From a virus: a DNA stretch of 64,000 bases. Below the pieces are notes generated by a model. That model was not told where the DNA came from. It did no database searches and saw nothing but the letters and a program-made list of their open reading frames with translations. The stretch is taken from positions 167,621 to 231,620 of the IMG/VR virus record IMGVR_UViG_3300034072_000926. One strand, 5' to 3'. The position numbers and the translations under genes were made by a program. Below, in pieces: positions 5,692-57,138 of this stretch (the stretch's first letter is position 1; each line of letters opens with the position of its first letter).

Positions 5692-6531
5692 GCCGTTATG
5701 AATTTGTATGATTCGATCTACAATCGCCTACAGCTTTGCTGTAGGGACTACGGTGTTTATCCATGTTGGACAAGCCAACATGTCTGCACACCTTCGCATT
5801 TACCTTCGGTTGAACGCTAGAACTTAAAATAGATTATATGGTCATATCATGAAACATAATGCGATTGATATGGGTTCTAAGAACTCAGGACATATATGTG
5901 ATGTAAAATAAGTGCTCAGGTTCCCTGAAGCACTTCGGACTTGCGTCGCAGAGCAAGCAAGGCCGTTTAATTTGTAAGTAATATTCTATAATCTTCCAGT
6001 CACACTGACTTCCCCCGTTCCCGGGAGAAGGTCAAAAAATATATGAAATGTTTGTATTTTCACAATATGACTGGTGTGGACAATTCGAAGGATCCTAGGT
6101 CTGCCATTATATCCTGCACCTTTTCAGTGCTCATTGCCGCTTCTTTGATACTAACCCACCAGCTGGTGTAGCTTTCTCTACAGGACGGTCTGAAGGTCGT
6201 AACACCTTCAACTCAACGCTTCCTTTGCTCACACCAGCGGCTCAGGAAGCTTGCTTTCTACTTTTCATAGAAAGTCTAGTCTTTGACTAGGGCATCCCAC
6301 TGTTTGGTTCAGTTCGGGATCTACCTAGGTTTCCGCGGTTGAAAATTACCACTTACCAAATCAGATCTACTGATTCGTTAAGCCCGCTCGGGGTTTGAAA
6401 TAGTTTAGAAAGCCACTCCTAAAACTTCTTCCACTTTCCCGACCCTAGCCGCGCCCAAATCCGCGGGGAGGGGGTTAGAGGGCATGATCTGCCAACTCAT
6501 GTGCTTTTTACATATGTTGCCAACCAACGGC
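5692..6531 (+). ncRNA. Candidate large structured noncoding RNA
   Basis: Between rnhA (5639) and the gene ending at 6798 there is no credible ORF. The plus strand instead contains a dense series of hairpins with perfect stems: 5728-5744, 5762-5782, 5912-5933, 5940-5957, 6009-6030 (with one C/A internal mismatch), 6191-6210, 6254-6274, 6276-6290, 6294-6320 (two stacked stems), 6359-6375 and 6380-6396. There is also a 12-base palindrome at 6157-6168. GCCGTT at 5692-5697 could pair with AACGGC at 6526-6531 and close the molecule. A G-U pair in the 6380 stem and the U-tract of the terminator at 6625-6656 both favour the plus strand. Size and style resemble the giant ornate RNAs of phages (GOLLD, ROOL), but I cannot match a family. 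The boundaries are approximate and no promoter was recognised. Confidence 0.55.
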
Positions 6532-49800: not shown

Positions 49801-50259
49801 TCACTCCACTGCGCTGAAACGCTTGGTGATCGCATGTGCCTGTTCGCGGGTGCAAGGGCCAATACCCAGGGCAGTCACGATGGGCGAACCATCGAACTCG
49901 GTGCCGGGGATAATGTGGTTCTTGTCCACGATGAGGGAAGTGATCAGACCAGCAGCCTGGGCCTCTTCGTAAGCGCGCTGGATAGCGGCTTCGTTCTTGG
50001 CCTTGAGGATGACTTGGGTGCCGATGAAGTCCGGGCCCTGGTAAACACGCAGGAGTTCCGGTTCGCGCCGACTAGCGAGAAGCACACAATTCTTGGCCGC
50101 ATGACAAGCCTGGCTTGCCAGCTTACCGGGCTTCATAGCCAGGTCGCCTCGAATGATGCTATAGATGCGAAGCTTTTCAGAGGCAGCTTCGAAGGCCTCG
50201 TCGTCATTATCCGCTTCGTAGCGAGCAATGGCTTCCTACAAGAACGAGTTCGTCAGCAT
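49801..50259 (-). CDS. pth2: Peptidyl-tRNA hydrolase 2, with in-frame amber codon at position 8
   Basis: The Pth2 fold is clear: YSIIRGDLAMKPGKLASQAC followed by HAA, then DFIGTQVILKAKN, GLITSLIVD and GSPIVTALGIGP. Pth2 frees tRNA from peptidyl-tRNA lost by ribosomes. The only good start, ATG 50259 behind AAGGA, reads MLTNSFL, then TAG (50238-50236), then EAIARYEADNDDEAFEAASE and on in frame into the enzyme. Reading TAG as an amino acid gives 152 residues. Starting at the next ATG (50136) would remove the conserved beta strand and half of the K-x-x-A-Q-x-x-H-A region lead-in. A less likely alternative is an ATT start right after the TAG with AGGA four bases upstream. An amber-reading tRNA is encoded at 54590-54662. 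It has its own promoter at 50300-50327. Confidence 0.8.
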
Positions 50260-50299
50260 TTGCAGTCCTTTCTATTTGCGTCCAACATCGGACGTCCTC

Positions 50300-51567: not shown

Positions 51568-51917
51568 GCACCAGTTTTATTCTGTTCTGGAGCACCTGTC
51601 AACTTCTTAAAAGCTTCGACTTCCCTGTCGAGAATTTCGAGAGCAATAGGAATATCTGCGCCTGCAACTCGAATGTCGAAAAAGCCCCAATGACATTCAT
51701 CGTCGCCGTCCGAATCGTAGCACTGATATTCAGTGCCGGTCTTCTCGTCGAGGAAATGGTTATCCAGAGAATACCAGAGATCTTCATCAATAGCACCGAC
51801 TGGAATTTTGATGCGACATGTGAGCTCGATGATAGGTTTCTCGGCATCATGCACGAAAATCCAATCGGTCGGGACAACCAGCTTAGAATCCCGAACCAAG
51901 ATCGCAAAGATGCTCAT
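51564..51917 (-). CDS. Unknown 117-residue protein
   Basis: A beta-rich soluble protein (MSIFAILVRDSKLVVPTDWI, HWGFFDIRVAGADIPIALEI) with Cys and Asp clusters in the middle (CYDSDGDDECHWG). The ATG overlaps the stop of the aminoacyl-tRNA synthetase-like gene (ATGA), so it may be a partner of that enzyme, but no family is recognised. Confidence 0.6.
   Translation of the reverse strand: MSIFAILVRDSKLVVPTDWIFVHDAEKPIIELTCRIKIPVGAIDEDLWYSLDNHFLDEKTGTEYQCYDSDGDDECHWGFFDIRVAGADIPIALEILDREVEAFKKLTGAPEQNKTGA
51574..51602 (-). promoter_or_regulatory. Sigma70-like promoter for the phosphatase gene, predicted leaderless
   Basis: Minus strand TTGACA (51602-51597), 17-base spacer, TAAAAC (51579-51574), within the end of the upstream coding sequence. 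+1 falls at 51567, the A of the ATG. Confidence 0.5.
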
Positions 51918-52714
51918 TCGTCACTGCCATTTGCGTGACGAGTGACATGCAGAGCGTTATCGGCCTGATACTTCTCGACCTGCTGCCAATTGTAGATGCA
52001 GCGATCCAGACCGATGGCAATCTCGAGCACAAGTGCGTCCTTCTCAACAAGACCTTTCTTGCTCTGGAACTTCAGCTTCTCAGGGAAATCAGTTCGCAGG
52101 CTGATGCTGCAAACTTCCATCCACTTGTCACCGTTCCAGACTTCAACGTCCATCGTCTTCAGCGAATAGGCCGGCAGACGATCCGACTCAACAAGACGGG
52201 TCGGTAAATGAACCATAGAGGCGATCATCTTCCGAACGGGTTCGAGGATCGCAGCATGATAGTCGTTCGCTGTGTCTGCACTGTAGATGCACTGGAACTC
52301 TTGCTGGTAGAACTCCTTAAGGCGCATGTGCTTGGTCGGCTGCACGATTTCCCGACGGAAGCTCTTACCCGCCTGCCAAACCACAAAGGGCGGGGAAACG
52401 CCAAGATGGTTGTTGAGCAGGTATTGCGCGTAGGCATAGCTACCGGGAGTGGTTTCGGGTCGCAGCGTCAACGGCGCTTCGCCGGACATGGCCGGGACCT
52501 GCTGATCCCATACATCCTCAGATGTGTAGTTGACATTGAGTAGATCACGCGGAGTGAGTAACGGGGCCTCGACGAAATGGAACTTCCACTGCGGGTTCAA
52601 GGCCAGCAATGCGTTTTGAATGGTCCGAGCAAAATAGTCCCGGAAGGTTTCGCGAAGGCGGATCTCTTCCTCATTCCAGAAGACCAGACCATTGATGTTA
52701 TAGGGATTCTGCAT
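51914..52714 (-). CDS. Class II aminoacyl-tRNA synthetase catalytic domain, GlyRS-like, no anticodon domain
   Basis: A 266-residue protein consisting of one class II catalytic core. Motif 2 is FRREIVQPTKHMRLKEF (119-135), matching the archaeal-type glycyl-tRNA synthetase FRNEIsPR...RxREF. LRPETTPGSYAYAQYLL (84-100) matches the GlyRS LRPETAQG segment. Motif 3 is EIAIGLDR (231-238). Full GlyRS has 450-600 residues with a C-terminal anticodon-binding domain, which is absent here. It could charge a tRNA without reading its anticodon, aminoacylate something else, or make an aminoacyl-adenylate. ATG 52714 follows an AAGG. It is 4 kb from cysS and 2 kb from the amber tRNA. Confidence 0.8.
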   Translation of the reverse strand: MQNPYNINGLVFWNEEEIRLRETFRDYFARTIQNALLALNPQWKFHFVEAPLLTPRDLLNVNYTSEDVWDQQVPAMSGEAPLTLRPETTPGSYAYAQYLLNNHLGVSPPFVVWQAGKSFRREIVQPTKHMRLKEFYQQEFQCIYSADTANDYHAAILEPVRKMIASMVHLPTRLVESDRLPAYSLKTMDVEVWNGDKWMEVCSISLRTDFPEKLKFQSKKGLVEKDALVLEIAIGLDRCIYNWQQVEKYQADNALHVTRHANGSDE

Positions 52715-52722
52715 AATGGGCC

Positions 52723-53232
52723 TTACTGGTTGAGAATGAAGATGAAGGAAACAACTGCCATCATAACACCGCCCCAGAAGAATGGGCTCTTCAGCAGCGC
52801 GGGCTTGATATCTGGGATAGCGATGGGTTCTGGTTCCGGCCTCGGTTCCCGAACATTTCTGAGCCCGAGGAAGGCTTGCCATTCCCATTCCGAAGAAGGC
52901 CGGTCATTGTTGTTCGTACTAGCCGCACCAGCATAGCCGATATACAGGCCTTCGCTGGCCGCCCATGTCCTCAGCTCTTCCCATACGGGCTGATATGCAG
53001 ATTTCTCATCTTCCATATCCCATCGAGAACCATAGCAGGGCATTTCGAAGAGATGCCGGATAGCCTTTGGGGCAGTCACTGGCGCATATTCACTGCCGTG
53101 CTTTACTGCCTCTTGTAGGGCTTCGAGCAAGGTGGACTTTACGAAGAACCGAAGGAGGTCTGCATTCTCCTTCAGTTCATTATGGATGGCTTCGCGCTTG
53201 GTCTTGCGAAGATCATCTGCGAGCGTTGCCAT
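52723..53232 (-). CDS. Tail-anchored membrane protein of unknown function
   Basis: A 169-residue protein with a soluble N-terminal helical domain (residues 1-55), a Trp-rich region (SSEWEWQAFLGLR), a Pro/Glu linker (EPRPEPEPIAIPDIKP) and one C-terminal membrane segment (FFWGGVMMAVVSFIFIL, about 150-167). It starts with TAATG overlap on the antiporter stop, so it probably works with that transporter at the inner membrane. Not recognised as a family. Confidence 0.65.
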   Translation of the reverse strand: MATLADDLRKTKREAIHNELKENADLLRFFVKSTLLEALQEAVKHGSEYAPVTAPKAIRHLFEMPCYGSRWDMEDEKSAYQPVWEELRTWAASEGLYIGYAGAASTNNNDRPSSEWEWQAFLGLRNVREPRPEPEPIAIPDIKPALLKSPFFWGGVMMAVVSFIFILNQ

Positions 53233-54551
53233 TAGTCTTCAATCCTCAAGTGATCTGCCTTGTATTCAGCTTCGAAGACATCCTTATAGGTTTTGATGAT
53301 TAGAATCAATACCGCAGGATACAGGAAGGTGGACAGAAGGACATTGCCGACCACAATAGCCTCGAAGAGTTCCAGGTATTCAAAGTCCCTGGGAATCATA
53401 TGCAACATGAGCAGCGAGAACGCACCCTTCACACCGGCAGCAGTCAATACCTTCCACCAATGCAGCGGGATGGTCACAACTTTATCAGTCCGCTGACTCA
53501 TCCAAGCAAACCCGCCCAACATGACCATTCGAATGATCGTCGAACCTACGAATACTGCCATGATCTCGCCCCAATACTTCACAAGCAACTGGAGATTGAT
53601 CAGATTAGCCATCGTAATGAACAAGACCGTCGAGGCAATGATTGCAATGAACTGGATGTTACCGATGACGACTTGATAGGCATAGGAATCCTTGATCATG
53701 TTGTCGAAACGAGGAATGATCTTCCCAATGGTCCGACCACGTTCGCCAGTGTCCTCAACAGCATTCTCGAGTTCACTCGATAGTCGCTTGGTGATGATAT
53801 TGTTGGCGAAGAGGATCGCAACGATAACAGCAAAGATGCCAGAAGCATGATAGTGTTCAGCAATCGCGAACGCGCCTAGGGCCATGAGCAGGACAATCAT
53901 CGTCTCAGTCATTGCATCGTGGATATAACGCAGAGCAATAAGACCCACGTAACCAACGACCAGACCAATGCCAAGTGCGCCGACGACCATCTTGACCGCG
54001 TAGAGGGTGGGGTTATCCGCTACATGCTCGGGGCCATGACCCATATAGACTAGCGCGATACTGAATACAATCAGGGCACTTGCGTCGTTGAACAAACTCT
54101 CACCCTCTGCGAGGACTTTGAGATTGTGAGGCAAATGCGACCGACCGAACACCGCAGAGACCGAAACTGGATCCGTTGCAAGGATCATACAGAACAATGC
54201 TGCGACCGCCGGGGCCGTCAGATGGTAGTCAGGTAGAATGTGTCGATTGACCATGATTGCAAGGCCGACCGAAAGGACGATCATAATGCCTGCAATGTAG
54301 AACAAGCTTAGGGCATTGCGCTTGAGCTCATCCCAGCGGAGCATCATAGCGTCAACGCATATCAGGATGGGAAGCATGAGGAAGACCAGATGGTCAAATG
54401 TTTGATCACTAATCTCGATGGGACGATGCCCGGAAAGTGAAACCAGAACCACCGAGGCGATAATTGTTATCGGGGTGGGAACGCCTAGCTTTTGCTGGAC
54501 GAAAAGAGCCGTAGCGGCTATGAGCACAACAAAGATAGCTAGTTCTAGCAT
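53232..54551 (-). CDS. Na+/H+ antiporter, CPA1 (NhaP/NHE) family
   Basis: A 439-residue polytopic inner-membrane protein with about 12 hydrophobic segments. The CPA1 hallmarks are present: ATDPVSVSAV at about 125-134 and EGESLFNDASALIVF at about 149-163 with the Asn155-Asp156 pair that carries ions, plus a conserved Arg-bearing region later (VGSTIIRMVMLGG). It should exchange Na+ (or K+) for protons. Full length, with no disruption. The gene starts 38 bases after the 3' end of the amber tRNA, so both may lie on one transcript. Such a transporter is not part of any phage core gene set I know. Confidence 0.9.
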   Translation of the reverse strand: MLELAIFVVLIAATALFVQQKLGVPTPITIIASVVLVSLSGHRPIEISDQTFDHLVFLMLPILICVDAMMLRWDELKRNALSLFYIAGIMIVLSVGLAIMVNRHILPDYHLTAPAVAALFCMILATDPVSVSAVFGRSHLPHNLKVLAEGESLFNDASALIVFSIALVYMGHGPEHVADNPTLYAVKMVVGALGIGLVVGYVGLIALRYIHDAMTETMIVLLMALGAFAIAEHYHASGIFAVIVAILFANNIITKRLSSELENAVEDTGERGRTIGKIIPRFDNMIKDSYAYQVVIGNIQFIAIIASTVLFITMANLINLQLLVKYWGEIMAVFVGSTIIRMVMLGGFAWMSQRTDKVVTIPLHWWKVLTAAGVKGAFSLLMLHMIPRDFEYLELFEAIVVGNVLLSTFLYPAVLILIIKTYKDVFEAEYKADHLRIED

Positions 54552-54589
54552 CTACTTTCCTATTCTGTTTGACCTCATAAAATGTTGAG

Positions 54590-54662
54590 CGCGCCTAGCG
54601 AGGCTCGAACTCGCGACCCGCGGATTTAGAGTCCGCTGCTCTACCAACTGAGCTATAAGCGC
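54590..54662 (-). tRNA. tRNA with anticodon CUA (amber suppressor tRNA)
   Basis: The minus strand folds as a complete 73-nt class I tRNA. Acceptor stem GCGCTTA/TAGGCGC is fully paired with one G-U, the D stem is GCTC/GAGC, and the anticodon stem is GCGGA/TCCGC with loop CTCTAAA. T33 is followed by CTA at 34-36. The T stem is GCGAG/CTCGC with loop TTCGAGC. The discriminator is G73 and no CCA is encoded. Anticodon CUA reads UAG. The body resembles ordinary elongator tRNAs (for example tRNALys and some tRNAArg). G73 argues against Cys as the charged amino acid; which amino acid it carries cannot be read from sequence. A promoter 9 bases upstream sets +1 two bases before the mature 5' end. Confidence 0.95.
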
Positions 54663-54670
54663 ATGTAACC

Positions 54671-54699
54671 TTTTTAGGACTTATTCTCCAGCCTGTCAA
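54671..54699 (-). promoter_or_regulatory. Sigma70-like promoter for the amber tRNA
   Basis: Minus strand TTGACA (54699-54694) with exactly 17 bases to TAAAAA (54676-54671), inside the last codons of the K+ channel gene. +1 near 54664 lies two bases before the tRNA. Confidence 0.65.
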
Positions 54700-55132
54700 G
54701 ACGTTCCATGATTTCTCGGAGAAGTTCTACCTGCTCCCTGGATTGATTCTTGAGAAGTTCCTGTTCCTCGTGCGTGAATGCATCGCTGTTGACGATCAGA
54801 TGTGCGGCAAACTTAGCCGTGATGATCGGTGCGATGATAAAGGTGCAAACGTGCATGAACACGCCTGCAAGAAACTTGCTCCAGGGATGCGTGGGAAACA
54901 TATCCCCGTATCCAACAGTGGTCGCTGTCACGGTCGCCCACCAAAAGCTGTCAGTGATGTCCTTGCCTTCGATGAAGCTGAACATAAGAGCAGCTATGGT
55001 CATGATCAGGCCATATGCAATTGCAAGGCTTATGACCCGATTGAACAGTTTCTGCATCAGCGTCAATTCTTGACCAGCCCCGGCTGCGGCGGTCCACAAA
55101 TCACTACCGGCTTGTTCGATCTTTCTACGCAT
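54674..55132 (-). CDS. Two-transmembrane K+ channel with TVGYGD selectivity filter
   Basis: A 152-residue KcsA/MthK-type channel subunit. It has an N-terminal amphipathic helix, TM1 at about 32-53, a pore helix (SFWWATVTAT), the canonical K+ filter TTVGYGD at 71-77, and TM2 at about 86-108. A C-terminal cytoplasmic coiled coil of about 40 residues (REQVELLREIMERLDRLENK) would help tetramerise it. All pore elements are intact, so a functional K+ channel in the host inner membrane is expected. ATG 55132 has TAGGAGG; a TTGACA with a weak -10 (TACGAG) lies upstream. The last codons contain the promoter of the amber tRNA. Confidence 0.92.
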   Translation of the reverse strand: MRRKIEQAGSDLWTAAAGAGQELTLMQKLFNRVISLAIAYGLIMTIAALMFSFIEGKDITDSFWWATVTATTVGYGDMFPTHPWSKFLAGVFMHVCTFIIAPIITAKFAAHLIVNSDAFTHEEQELLKNQSREQVELLREIMERLDRLENKS

Positions 55133-55194: not shown

Positions 55195-55788
55195 TTAGTT
55201 GAGTTCGCTATACTGGCTGGCCATCTTGTCCGACATTGCCTGGAGCATGCCGTGGATGCCCTTGTAGATGGTCGTGAACACACGGTAGAGGAAATCACCG
55301 AAGAACGTGCCGATGATCGACCAGGGCCAGAACACCATCCAGGTCGTCACGCGACCCTTGTTGTAGCGCACCATACGAGTGTTGTTGATGTCCAGGTAAG
55401 ACACATCACGACGCTTGTTGAATTCATCCCGCACCGCCGGATCGGCGGGGAAATCATTCAGTCCCTTTTCCTTCAAGAAGGCCGAACGCAGTTCGTCATA
55501 CTTCTCGAACAGTGCCGGCAGGAAGAACGCACGCCATTTGACGATAGCCCAGAGGCCGGCGATCACGAAATAGCCGATGACTCCGTAGAGGACGTAGATC
55601 GGATGTTCCTTGACCGTTGCAATGATCGGCGTAGTCGTGAAGGCCAGGATGACACCGATTCCGACCAGCGAGGTCAGAATTGCATAGCCGGTCTTTTCCT
55701 GACTAACCTGCCCGGCGAGGACCAGGGTGAGCAGCGCGATGAGGCTCCAGAACAGGACGCCTCCAAATTCAATAAAACTATAAATCAT
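55195..55788 (-). CDS. Polytopic membrane protein of unknown function
   Basis: A 197-residue protein with three N-terminal membrane segments (about 9-26, 33-52, 66-86) and a possible fourth near 150-170 (WMVFWPWSIIGTFFGDFLYR), joined by a charged cytoplasmic region (SAFLKEKGLNDFPADPAVRD). It starts at the base adjacent to the cysS stop with AGGAAA inside the cysS end, so it is translated from the cysS transcript. It precedes the K+ channel gene. Not recognised; a role in envelope or ion physiology is suggested only by its neighbours. Confidence 0.7.
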   Translation of the reverse strand: MIYSFIEFGGVLFWSLIALLTLVLAGQVSQEKTGYAILTSLVGIGVILAFTTTPIIATVKEHPIYVLYGVIGYFVIAGLWAIVKWRAFFLPALFEKYDELRSAFLKEKGLNDFPADPAVRDEFNKRRDVSYLDINNTRMVRYNKGRVTTWMVFWPWSIIGTFFGDFLYRVFTTIYKGIHGMLQAMSDKMASQYSELN

Positions 55789-57138
55789 TTAGAGTTTCCT
55801 CCATTCGGTGCCGTGAACGCCATCGGCAAGCGCGATTCCTGCATCAGTAAGCTGCTGACGAATCTGATCCGCTCTCTCGTAATCTCGATTCGCACGAGCA
55901 GCTTGACGTGCCGCTATTAGCGACTCTACCCACACCTTGTCAACACCAAAGGTGCGCCACTGGTGAGGAGTTTGGTTAAAGAAACCAAGGAACTGAGCAC
56001 ATTTGATCAGTTGAGCCTTAGATTTTGCCTTTTCATTTCCACTTTCCAACGCATCAGCGAGTTCGTGGAGAATGGCAATAGCTTTGGTGGTATTCAGATC
56101 ATGCTGGAGAGCATTCAGGAAATTCTCCGGCAGATCACAATCTTCGGCATAATTGACATCATCGTGCCGGTAGATCGTCTCATATAGACGATCCAACGAC
56201 TTATAGGCCACATCCAGTTTCGACAATGTGAAGTCCATCGGACTACGATAATGTGACTGGAGGAAGAGATAACGAACTGCCTCGCCGGGATATTGCTCGA
56301 CCAGCTCATTGAGGTAGATTACATTGCCCCGACTCTTCGACATCTTTTCGCTGTCGACGGTCAAAAGACCATTATGGATCCAGTTATTGGCCAGTGGCTT
56401 ACCAATGGCGCAATGACTCTGAGCACATTCGGCTTCATGATGTGGAAAGCGAAGATCCTGTCCGCCGCCATGAATGTCGATGGTCTGTTCATTAAACTCA
56501 GCAGCAATCATAGCTGAGCATTCAATATGCCAACCCGGTCGACCTTGACCCCAAGGACTATTCCACCAAGGCTCGCCCTCTTTTGCGGGCTTCCAGAGAA
56601 TGAAGTCCCTTGGATCCTTTTTCTTTGGATCAACTTCGACTCGCGAACCACTTTCAAGGCTCTTGTGATTAGCAAGTCCAGGATGCGGGTTACTGGGAAC
56701 ATGGAAGAATACCTCACCCTTGCGGACATACGCATACTTCTGTTCAACGAGACGCTTAATTAGCGTCAGCATCCCTCTAATGTTCTCTGTGGCTTTAGGC
56801 TCTACCGTTGGAGCCAAGCAATTGAGGGCAGCAAGGTCAGCGTGATATGCCTCGAGAGCCGGCTCGGTTATGGCCGAGATATCGACACCTTGCTCAATCG
56901 AAGCGTTGATGATCTTGTCATCAATATCCGTGACATTACGAGCATATCTGACTGCATTTTCACCATATGTATAGCGGAGCAATCGGAAGAGCTGGTCGAA
57001 TACGATAGCGGGGCGAGCATTGCCAATGTGGGCCGGGCCATAAACGGTTGGTCCACAGACATACATGCTCACGTGATTTGGATCGAGCGGTGTGAACTCT
57101 CGCAGAGAACGCGACTGACTATCATAGAGTTTAATCAT
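55789..57138 (-). CDS. cysS: Cysteinyl-tRNA synthetase
   Basis: A 449-residue complete class I CysRS. It has the Zn ligand Cys28 and signature HIGN (37-40) in CGPTVYGPAHIGNARPAI. Further Zn-site residues lie in WHIECSAM and GGGQDLRFPHHEAECAQSHC, and KMSKSRGN at about 264-271. Length equals bacterial CysRS (461). It makes Cys-tRNACys; why a phage carries it is unknown. No tRNACys is visible in the window, and the amber tRNA has G73 rather than the U73 that CysRS needs. A TTGACA/TAAGCT promoter sets +1 exactly on the ATG, with no Shine-Dalgarno. Confidence 0.96.
   Translation of the reverse strand: MIKLYDSQSRSLREFTPLDPNHVSMYVCGPTVYGPAHIGNARPAIVFDQLFRLLRYTYGENAVRYARNVTDIDDKIINASIEQGVDISAITEPALEAYHADLAALNCLAPTVEPKATENIRGMLTLIKRLVEQKYAYVRKGEVFFHVPSNPHPGLANHKSLESGSRVEVDPKKKDPRDFILWKPAKEGEPWWNSPWGQGRPGWHIECSAMIAAEFNEQTIDIHGGGQDLRFPHHEAECAQSHCAIGKPLANNWIHNGLLTVDSEKMSKSRGNVIYLNELVEQYPGEAVRYLFLQSHYRSPMDFTLSKLDVAYKSLDRLYETIYRHDDVNYAEDCDLPENFLNALQHDLNTTKAIAILHELADALESGNEKAKSKAQLIKCAQFLGFFNQTPHQWRTFGVDKVWVESLIAARQAARANRDYERADQIRQQLTDAGIALADGVHGTEWRKL

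Follow-up and report, generated by a model that had tools for sequence, protein, structure and literature searches.

A phage-encoded amber suppressor tRNA and, as its probable target, a conserved early stop codon in the phage gene for peptidyl-tRNA hydrolase 2

A tRNA predicted to read UAG is encoded in the window analysed here, a stretch of 64,000 nucleotides of viral DNA (positions 167621-231620 of a 465,259-base virus record), and raises the question of which UAG codon such a tRNA would serve. In this study, we propose that it probably acts as an amber suppressor of the phage, with codon 8 of the phage's own pth2, a UAG, as its conserved phage target; reading this codon would license full-length peptidyl-tRNA hydrolase 2 (Pth2).

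The tRNA, its promoter and its neighbours

The original prediction had described a structurally complete tRNA with the loop CTCTAAA and anticodon CUA, giving no strand. ARAGORN reported a single tRNA in the window, at 54589-54662 of the minus strand with anticodon cta, and the Rfam model RF00005 matched 54590-54662 over 71/71 model positions (69.9 bits, E 3e-13), as for a full cloverleaf; tRNA software thus accepts the structure, and loop and anticodon are as described (Table 1). Fold energy showed no advantage over shuffled sequences (z -0.62), so it is the match to the family model, together with conservation, that supports the tRNA. The label 'tRNA-Pyl' given by ARAGORN follows the anticodon; the D arm is ordinary (GCTCAGTTGGTAGAGC), and the reduced D loop that is a feature of tRNA-Pyl is absent. 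Among 28 distinct host tRNA sequences, taken from 30/47 host tRNA loci, the nearest by similarity were Rhizobium tRNA-Lys(CTT) and tRNA-Trp(CCA), at only 78% and 76%, thus the amino acid of the window tRNA cannot be named. By its anticodon it is a predicted amber suppressor.

Table 1. Features of the tRNA and pth2 region, in window coordinates
Feature	Position	Strand	Remarks
pth2	49801..50259	minus	ATG + 6 codons (MLTNSFL), UAG, 144 codons of peptidyl-tRNA hydrolase 2
Internal ATG	50134..50136	minus	where ORF callers start pth2; product without first PTH2 domain strand
In-frame UAG, codon 8 of pth2	50236..50238	minus	identical in L038-L044
Shine-Dalgarno-like AAAGGA	50266..50271	minus	before MLTNSFL start
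5'-leader hairpin of pth2	50279..50294	minus	CGTCC-GATGTT-GGACG; 2/5 pairs changed on both sides, 6 distinct rows; weak
Mini class II aminoacyl-tRNA synthetase	51914..52714	minus	GlyRS-like core without anticodon-binding domain; may charge the tRNA
Na+/H+ exchanger family protein	53232..54551	minus	
Amber-reading tRNA	54590..54662	minus	anticodon CUA, loop CTCTAAA, G73, CCA not encoded; ARAGORN, Rfam, conservation
tRNA promoter	about 54671..54699	minus	TTGACA-17 nt-TAAAAA; kept in 6/8 relatives
Two-helix ion channel	54674..55132	minus	Ion_trans_2
197-aa membrane-like protein	55195..55788	minus	Phosso: 198-aa protein in same place between CysRS and tRNA
Cysteinyl-tRNA synthetase (CysRS)	55789..57138	minus	conserved neighbour

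The promoter of its own with 17-base spacing that had been claimed for the tRNA was likewise found. L038 and L040-L044 have it too, 8-9 nt ahead of the corresponding tRNA; it is absent in L039 and in phage Phosso, and was not among the matches of a generic sigma-70 scan. Sites of a TTGACR-N16-18-TAAA phage promoter class number five in the window vs 0.82 expected (e.g. 51576-51602 and 54673-54699, minus strand). The whole record (G000) yielded 53 Rfam tRNA matches, mostly in arrays near its two ends, and the CUA tRNA of the window stands alone. A second CUA tRNA of the record, at 441571-441647 of the minus strand, has A73 and a different body (C1; L016, L036). G001, G003, G005, G007 and Phosso likewise have a second CUA tRNA, located apart from the mini synthetase.

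Along the minus strand the order of genes is CysRS, the 197-aa membrane-like protein, the ion channel, the tRNA, the Na+/H+ exchanger, a 169-aa protein, the mini class II synthetase and, at a greater distance, pth2. In Phosso, CysRS (46% identical), the 198-aa protein, the tRNA and the mini synthetase are retained; the tRNA is annotated there as undetermined, and ARAGORN reads CUA in it. An ion-transport context had been proposed for the tRNA; the neighbours constant in Phosso and the window are instead CysRS, the small membrane protein, the mini synthetase and the stop-bearing pth2, the last two being constant in L038-L044 as well. The exchanger, with one weak phage match only, and the two-helix channel flank the tRNA as neighbours and are not a conserved context across relatives, and a link to ion transport was rejected.

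The mini synthetase was found in 25 IMG/VR loci. A lone CUA tRNA lies just upstream of it in 8/8 cases comprising Phosso and the seven closest loci (L038-L044), and in 0/18 other loci within the flanks examined; the tRNAs of those eight share the loop CTCTAAA and G73 and differ in the acceptor stem. Some records of more distant relatives (G010, G011, G018 and XbC2) also have CUA tRNAs, at other places. In Xanthomonas phage XbC2, a tRNA-Ser(GCT) directly before the mini synthetase replaces the CUA tRNA (L063, 9893-9980), and L055 carries a phage-encoded tmRNA (5854-6268) near a tRNA array and the mini synthetase.

The core of this enzyme corresponds to tRNA-synt_2b, and its class II motif residues vary little or not at all across 30 rows. 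By profile it is nearest GlyRS, at 60.6 bits vs a cut-off of 312, the core alone matching, and GlyRS folds ranked top for its structural model (pLDDT 88.7; 8slg, Z 22.2, rmsd 4.9, 243 aligned); matches to PylRS were weak, GlyRS being closer in both profile and fold. In 9/9 close phages it lies 0.05-1.9 kb from the CUA tRNA, and a dedicated synthetase/tRNA pair in one lineage is possible on this arrangement. Such GlyRS-like mini synthetases without an anticodon domain are common to many jumbo phages and alphaproteobacterial contigs. Relatives at 56-62% identity come from contigs whose titles name Rhizobium, Devosia, Phenylobacterium and others (63 loci, L136-L198), with tRNAs near 0/63 of these chromosomal-type loci, and a CUA tRNA was found by pattern in 0/10 genomes with mini synthetase relatives, the pattern being one that misses some real CUA tRNAs, that of the window included. 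The enzyme was sought and not found in Agrobacterium phage Atu_ph07 and in the contig of L288; one list of matches named 19 other records and not Atu_ph07. The enzyme is missing from other phages with the early pth2 stop and occurs elsewhere without a CUA tRNA nearby; a dedicated pair is apparently not needed for the proposed control of pth2 by its stop.

An early in-frame stop in pth2

The pth2 candidate, 4.3 kb from the CUA tRNA in the window, was found by comparing TAG-readthrough frames between relatives. In the window and 7/7 close relatives the gene begins M[LI][TSI]NSFL-UAG-EA, and the Pth2 core follows in the same frame. Further members of the group have MKY-UAG (Phosso), MTM-UAG (L235), MSY-UAG (L236) and MTAFT-UAG (L288), and in Atu_ph07 the stop at the same place is UGA (MIGEHF-UGA). 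An early stop after 3-7 codons was present in 13/13 phages found with this Pth2 (UAG in 12, UGA in one), a count that excludes the duplicates L280/L290 (the same as Atu_ph07), L229-L234, L237, L281-L287, L289 and L291. The base after the stop was never U in members of the group. Altogether 17 phage records matched Pth2, with Phosso and Atu_ph07 (two records) belonging to the group and 14 being weaker matches; in two of these 14, XacN1 and phiM12, the distant Pth2 has no early stop.

The codons around this stop suggest that it is passed. Pairwise differences in the seven lead codons before the UAG were 64 synonymous to 25 not in the reading frame, vs 20:81 and 1:102 in the other frames, and in the 33 codons from the UAG to the internal ATG they were 177:138 in frame across eight phages, vs 48:269 and 43:275; these counts are pairwise among related sequences and hence not independent. 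The UAG itself was identical in all 28 pairs of the eight close phages. By these comparisons, selection at the protein level acts on the codons before and after the UAG, and since the same frame is selected on both sides, a programmed frameshift at the stop is not supported. No in-frame ATG, GTG or TTG occurs within the 33 codons after the UAG in the eight close phages. The Pth2 profile (PF01981) scores 71.8 bits against a curated cut-off of 23 and matches from position 3 when the frame is read through the UAG; with translation begun at the internal ATG, the match starts at position 13 and still scores 59.9 bits. Between UAG and internal ATG lies the first strand of the domain, LRIYSIIRGDL, from which solved Pth2 structures align. 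The comparison shows, at the level of sequence, that ORF callers mis-start pth2 in these genomes. Folding of the readthrough product as a single sequence gave a pLDDT of 42, and this model was discarded; for the 5'-leader hairpin shuffles equalled the observed covariation in 31/500 cases, a weak signal.

UAG elsewhere and the match of stop and anticodon

A scan for TAG-split genes found none in the window, and in Phosso 1-246000, searched for general recoding, no TAG-split gene was accepted, the candidates being mostly antisense. We also scanned for a start with Shine-Dalgarno, a short lead, a stop, a coding-like gap (gap score >3) and a gene. In the window, L038-L044, half of Phosso and the Atu_ph07 locus, this pattern gave nine TAG cases, all pth2, and 0 TGA and 0 TAA cases, missing the UGA case of Atu_ph07; across all of Phosso, with its 527 called genes, the pattern was matched by pth2 and by a single weaker TAG case that runs antisense to an annotated gene. 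Among 47 TAG positions conserved in at least two relatives, 41 were antisense to called genes, and the other six were pth2, two opposite its extended start, one opposite local genes and two apparent leaders just before start codons, judged by eye. Only in pth2 does the TAG have the sense orientation of the gene and coding sequence before and after it, thus within the sequence scanned it is, by these scans, the only gene with a conserved in-frame UAG.

UAG also remains in use as a terminator, ending 37/527 called genes in Phosso. It ends 25/432 genes in CUA-type sequence vs 34/375 elsewhere (p 0.08), in automatic gene calls that include some antisense artefacts, and the avoidance of UAG as a sign of a strong suppressor is thus unsupported; since UAG is not avoided, strong suppression would lengthen further proteins as well. 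There is no broad recoding of UAG by the phage in the sequence scanned. Altered UAG reading during infection, as had been predicted, stays a plausible effect and now has a candidate target in pth2, without extending to a general recoding.

A CUA tRNA was found in 10/10 UAG-type records that could be judged (G000-G007, Phosso and G032, the contig of L288), G030 and G031, fragments of 38 and 25 kb, standing outside the ten with no tRNA in the loci examined and a CUA candidate unconfirmed. Atu_ph07, with its UGA stop, carries a UCA tRNA (L258), an opal tRNA that has been reported for this phage (PMC6102473), and a CUA tRNA was absent among 30/31 of its Rfam tRNA loci, none being confirmed among seven pattern matches. 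With UGA and a UCA tRNA present and no CUA tRNA found, the pth2 stop and the suppressor anticodon are, as judged from these genomes, changed together, one event in one genome of the sample. In Atu_ph07 and G032 tRNA and pth2 are far apart, so linkage is not the cause of the match. On the other hand, XacN1 has CUA tRNAs though its distant Pth2 lacks the early stop, and in several phages with the mini synthetase CUA tRNAs lacking a known target lie elsewhere, thus a CUA tRNA alone does not imply a stop in pth2. The record of the window has, in addition to its second CUA tRNA, a second Pth2 without the stop, and these could make either dispensable.

Proposed mechanism, alternatives and known systems

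In a host that is uninfected, or at an early stage of infection, translation from the true pth2 start would end at the UAG with release of a 7-residue peptide. After the phage tRNA has been transcribed from its own promoter and, as we infer, charged, some ribosomes would insert an amino acid at the UAG and go on to full-length Pth2. The stop would tie Pth2 output to the level of suppressor against release factor 1 and delay Pth2 until the tRNA has built up, putatively for timing or feedback control of Pth2, or else for insertion of a special residue. Peptidyl-tRNA hydrolase recycles peptidyl-tRNAs fallen off ribosomes, often early in the message (PMC10192219). A fuller circuit, in which the early stop serves as a sensor of how suppressor tRNA and release factor are balanced and one lineage has its own synthetase/suppressor pair that may insert a chosen residue, is put forward as a tentative and rather doubtful extension; the stop lies in the short-peptide zone where drop-off is common, thus in such a circuit the supply of enzyme would follow demand.

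Other explanations need no suppression of pth2 or give the tRNA another role. The frame ending at the UAG might be a leader peptide, with Pth2 made without a suppressor by reinitiation or internal initiation, either at a non-AUG codon or at the internal ATG (50136). This ATG is indeed where gene callers and the annotations of Phosso and Atu_ph07 begin the gene, and the product from there is still well recognised as PTH2; however, the 33 codons before this ATG are selected in frame, they contain the first domain strand and none of the usual start codons in the eight close phages, and the UGA/UCA match in Atu_ph07 would be chance, so that we hold this to be improbable. A suppressor directed at the host, reading UAG in host genes to disturb termination, with pth2 tolerating or using the side effect, would suit a tRNA that has a promoter of its own and lies outside the tRNA arrays, but the phages themselves terminate genes with UAG and the conserved in-frame UAG of pth2 would be left unexplained; we give it very little credence. 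Least credible, by a narrow difference, is a tRNA charged by the mini synthetase to donate its amino acid off the ribosome, with the CUA anticodon serving to exclude it from translation. The closeness of tRNA and GlyRS-like core in all close phages and the conserved catalytic motif residues speak for such a role, yet none of the 18 other mini synthetase loci has a CUA tRNA nearby, the enzyme stands on Rhizobiales-type chromosomes in genomes of which 10/10 gave no CUA tRNA by pattern, and neither Atu_ph07 nor the contig of L288 was found to have it.

Suppression of the pth2 stop by a phage tRNA, the reading that we prefer, bears on several known systems. The titles and abstracts searched hold no description of a stop-gated pth2, or of a single-gene stop on a translation enzyme with a matched suppressor. 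The original prediction knew of no amber-reading tRNA in a T4-like phage of this kind; CUA tRNAs have been reported in the jumbo phages XacN1 (PMC5852040) and RsoM2USA (PMC8504454) and in Sinorhizobium phage AP-J-162, where it is called tRNA-Pyl (PMC11242549), thus the window phage is not the first. These are likewise large phages with many tRNAs, and no general recoding is described for them. They differ in that no target is named there, the XacN1 authors having read through 18 amber stops and found none (PMC5852040), whereas a conserved target is proposed here. Several standard-code giant phages carry stop-reading tRNAs without a known target, and pth2 can now be named as a candidate for one. 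The question is testable in the cultured phages Phosso and Atu_ph07, and if the mini synthetase does charge the tRNA, the two would form a natural phage-borne synthetase/suppressor pair.

In code-15 phages a phage suppressor tRNA also opens genes with in-frame UAG, and timing of lytic genes by stop codons and suppressors has been proposed for recoded phages (PMC10879173, citing Borges 2022). The stops there lie inside structural and lysis genes, whereas here a single UAG stands at the start of one enzyme gene and UAG still terminates others; UAG inside many genes, the mark of code 15, was not found, pth2 being the sole coding-scored in-frame TAG gene in the sequence scanned. The RF2 gene prfB has an early in-frame stop that needs a frameshift (PMC12421855). 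In prfB, as would be the case here with a stop conserved in all 13 phages, the output of a translation-factor gene is governed by a stop within its first codons, but the frame is unchanged in pth2 and a phage tRNA would read the stop. In Atu_ph07 (PMC6102473), UGA/UCA replaces UAG/CUA, tRNA and gene lie far apart and no mini synthetase was found, yet the suppressor again matches the early stop of an orthologous pth2.
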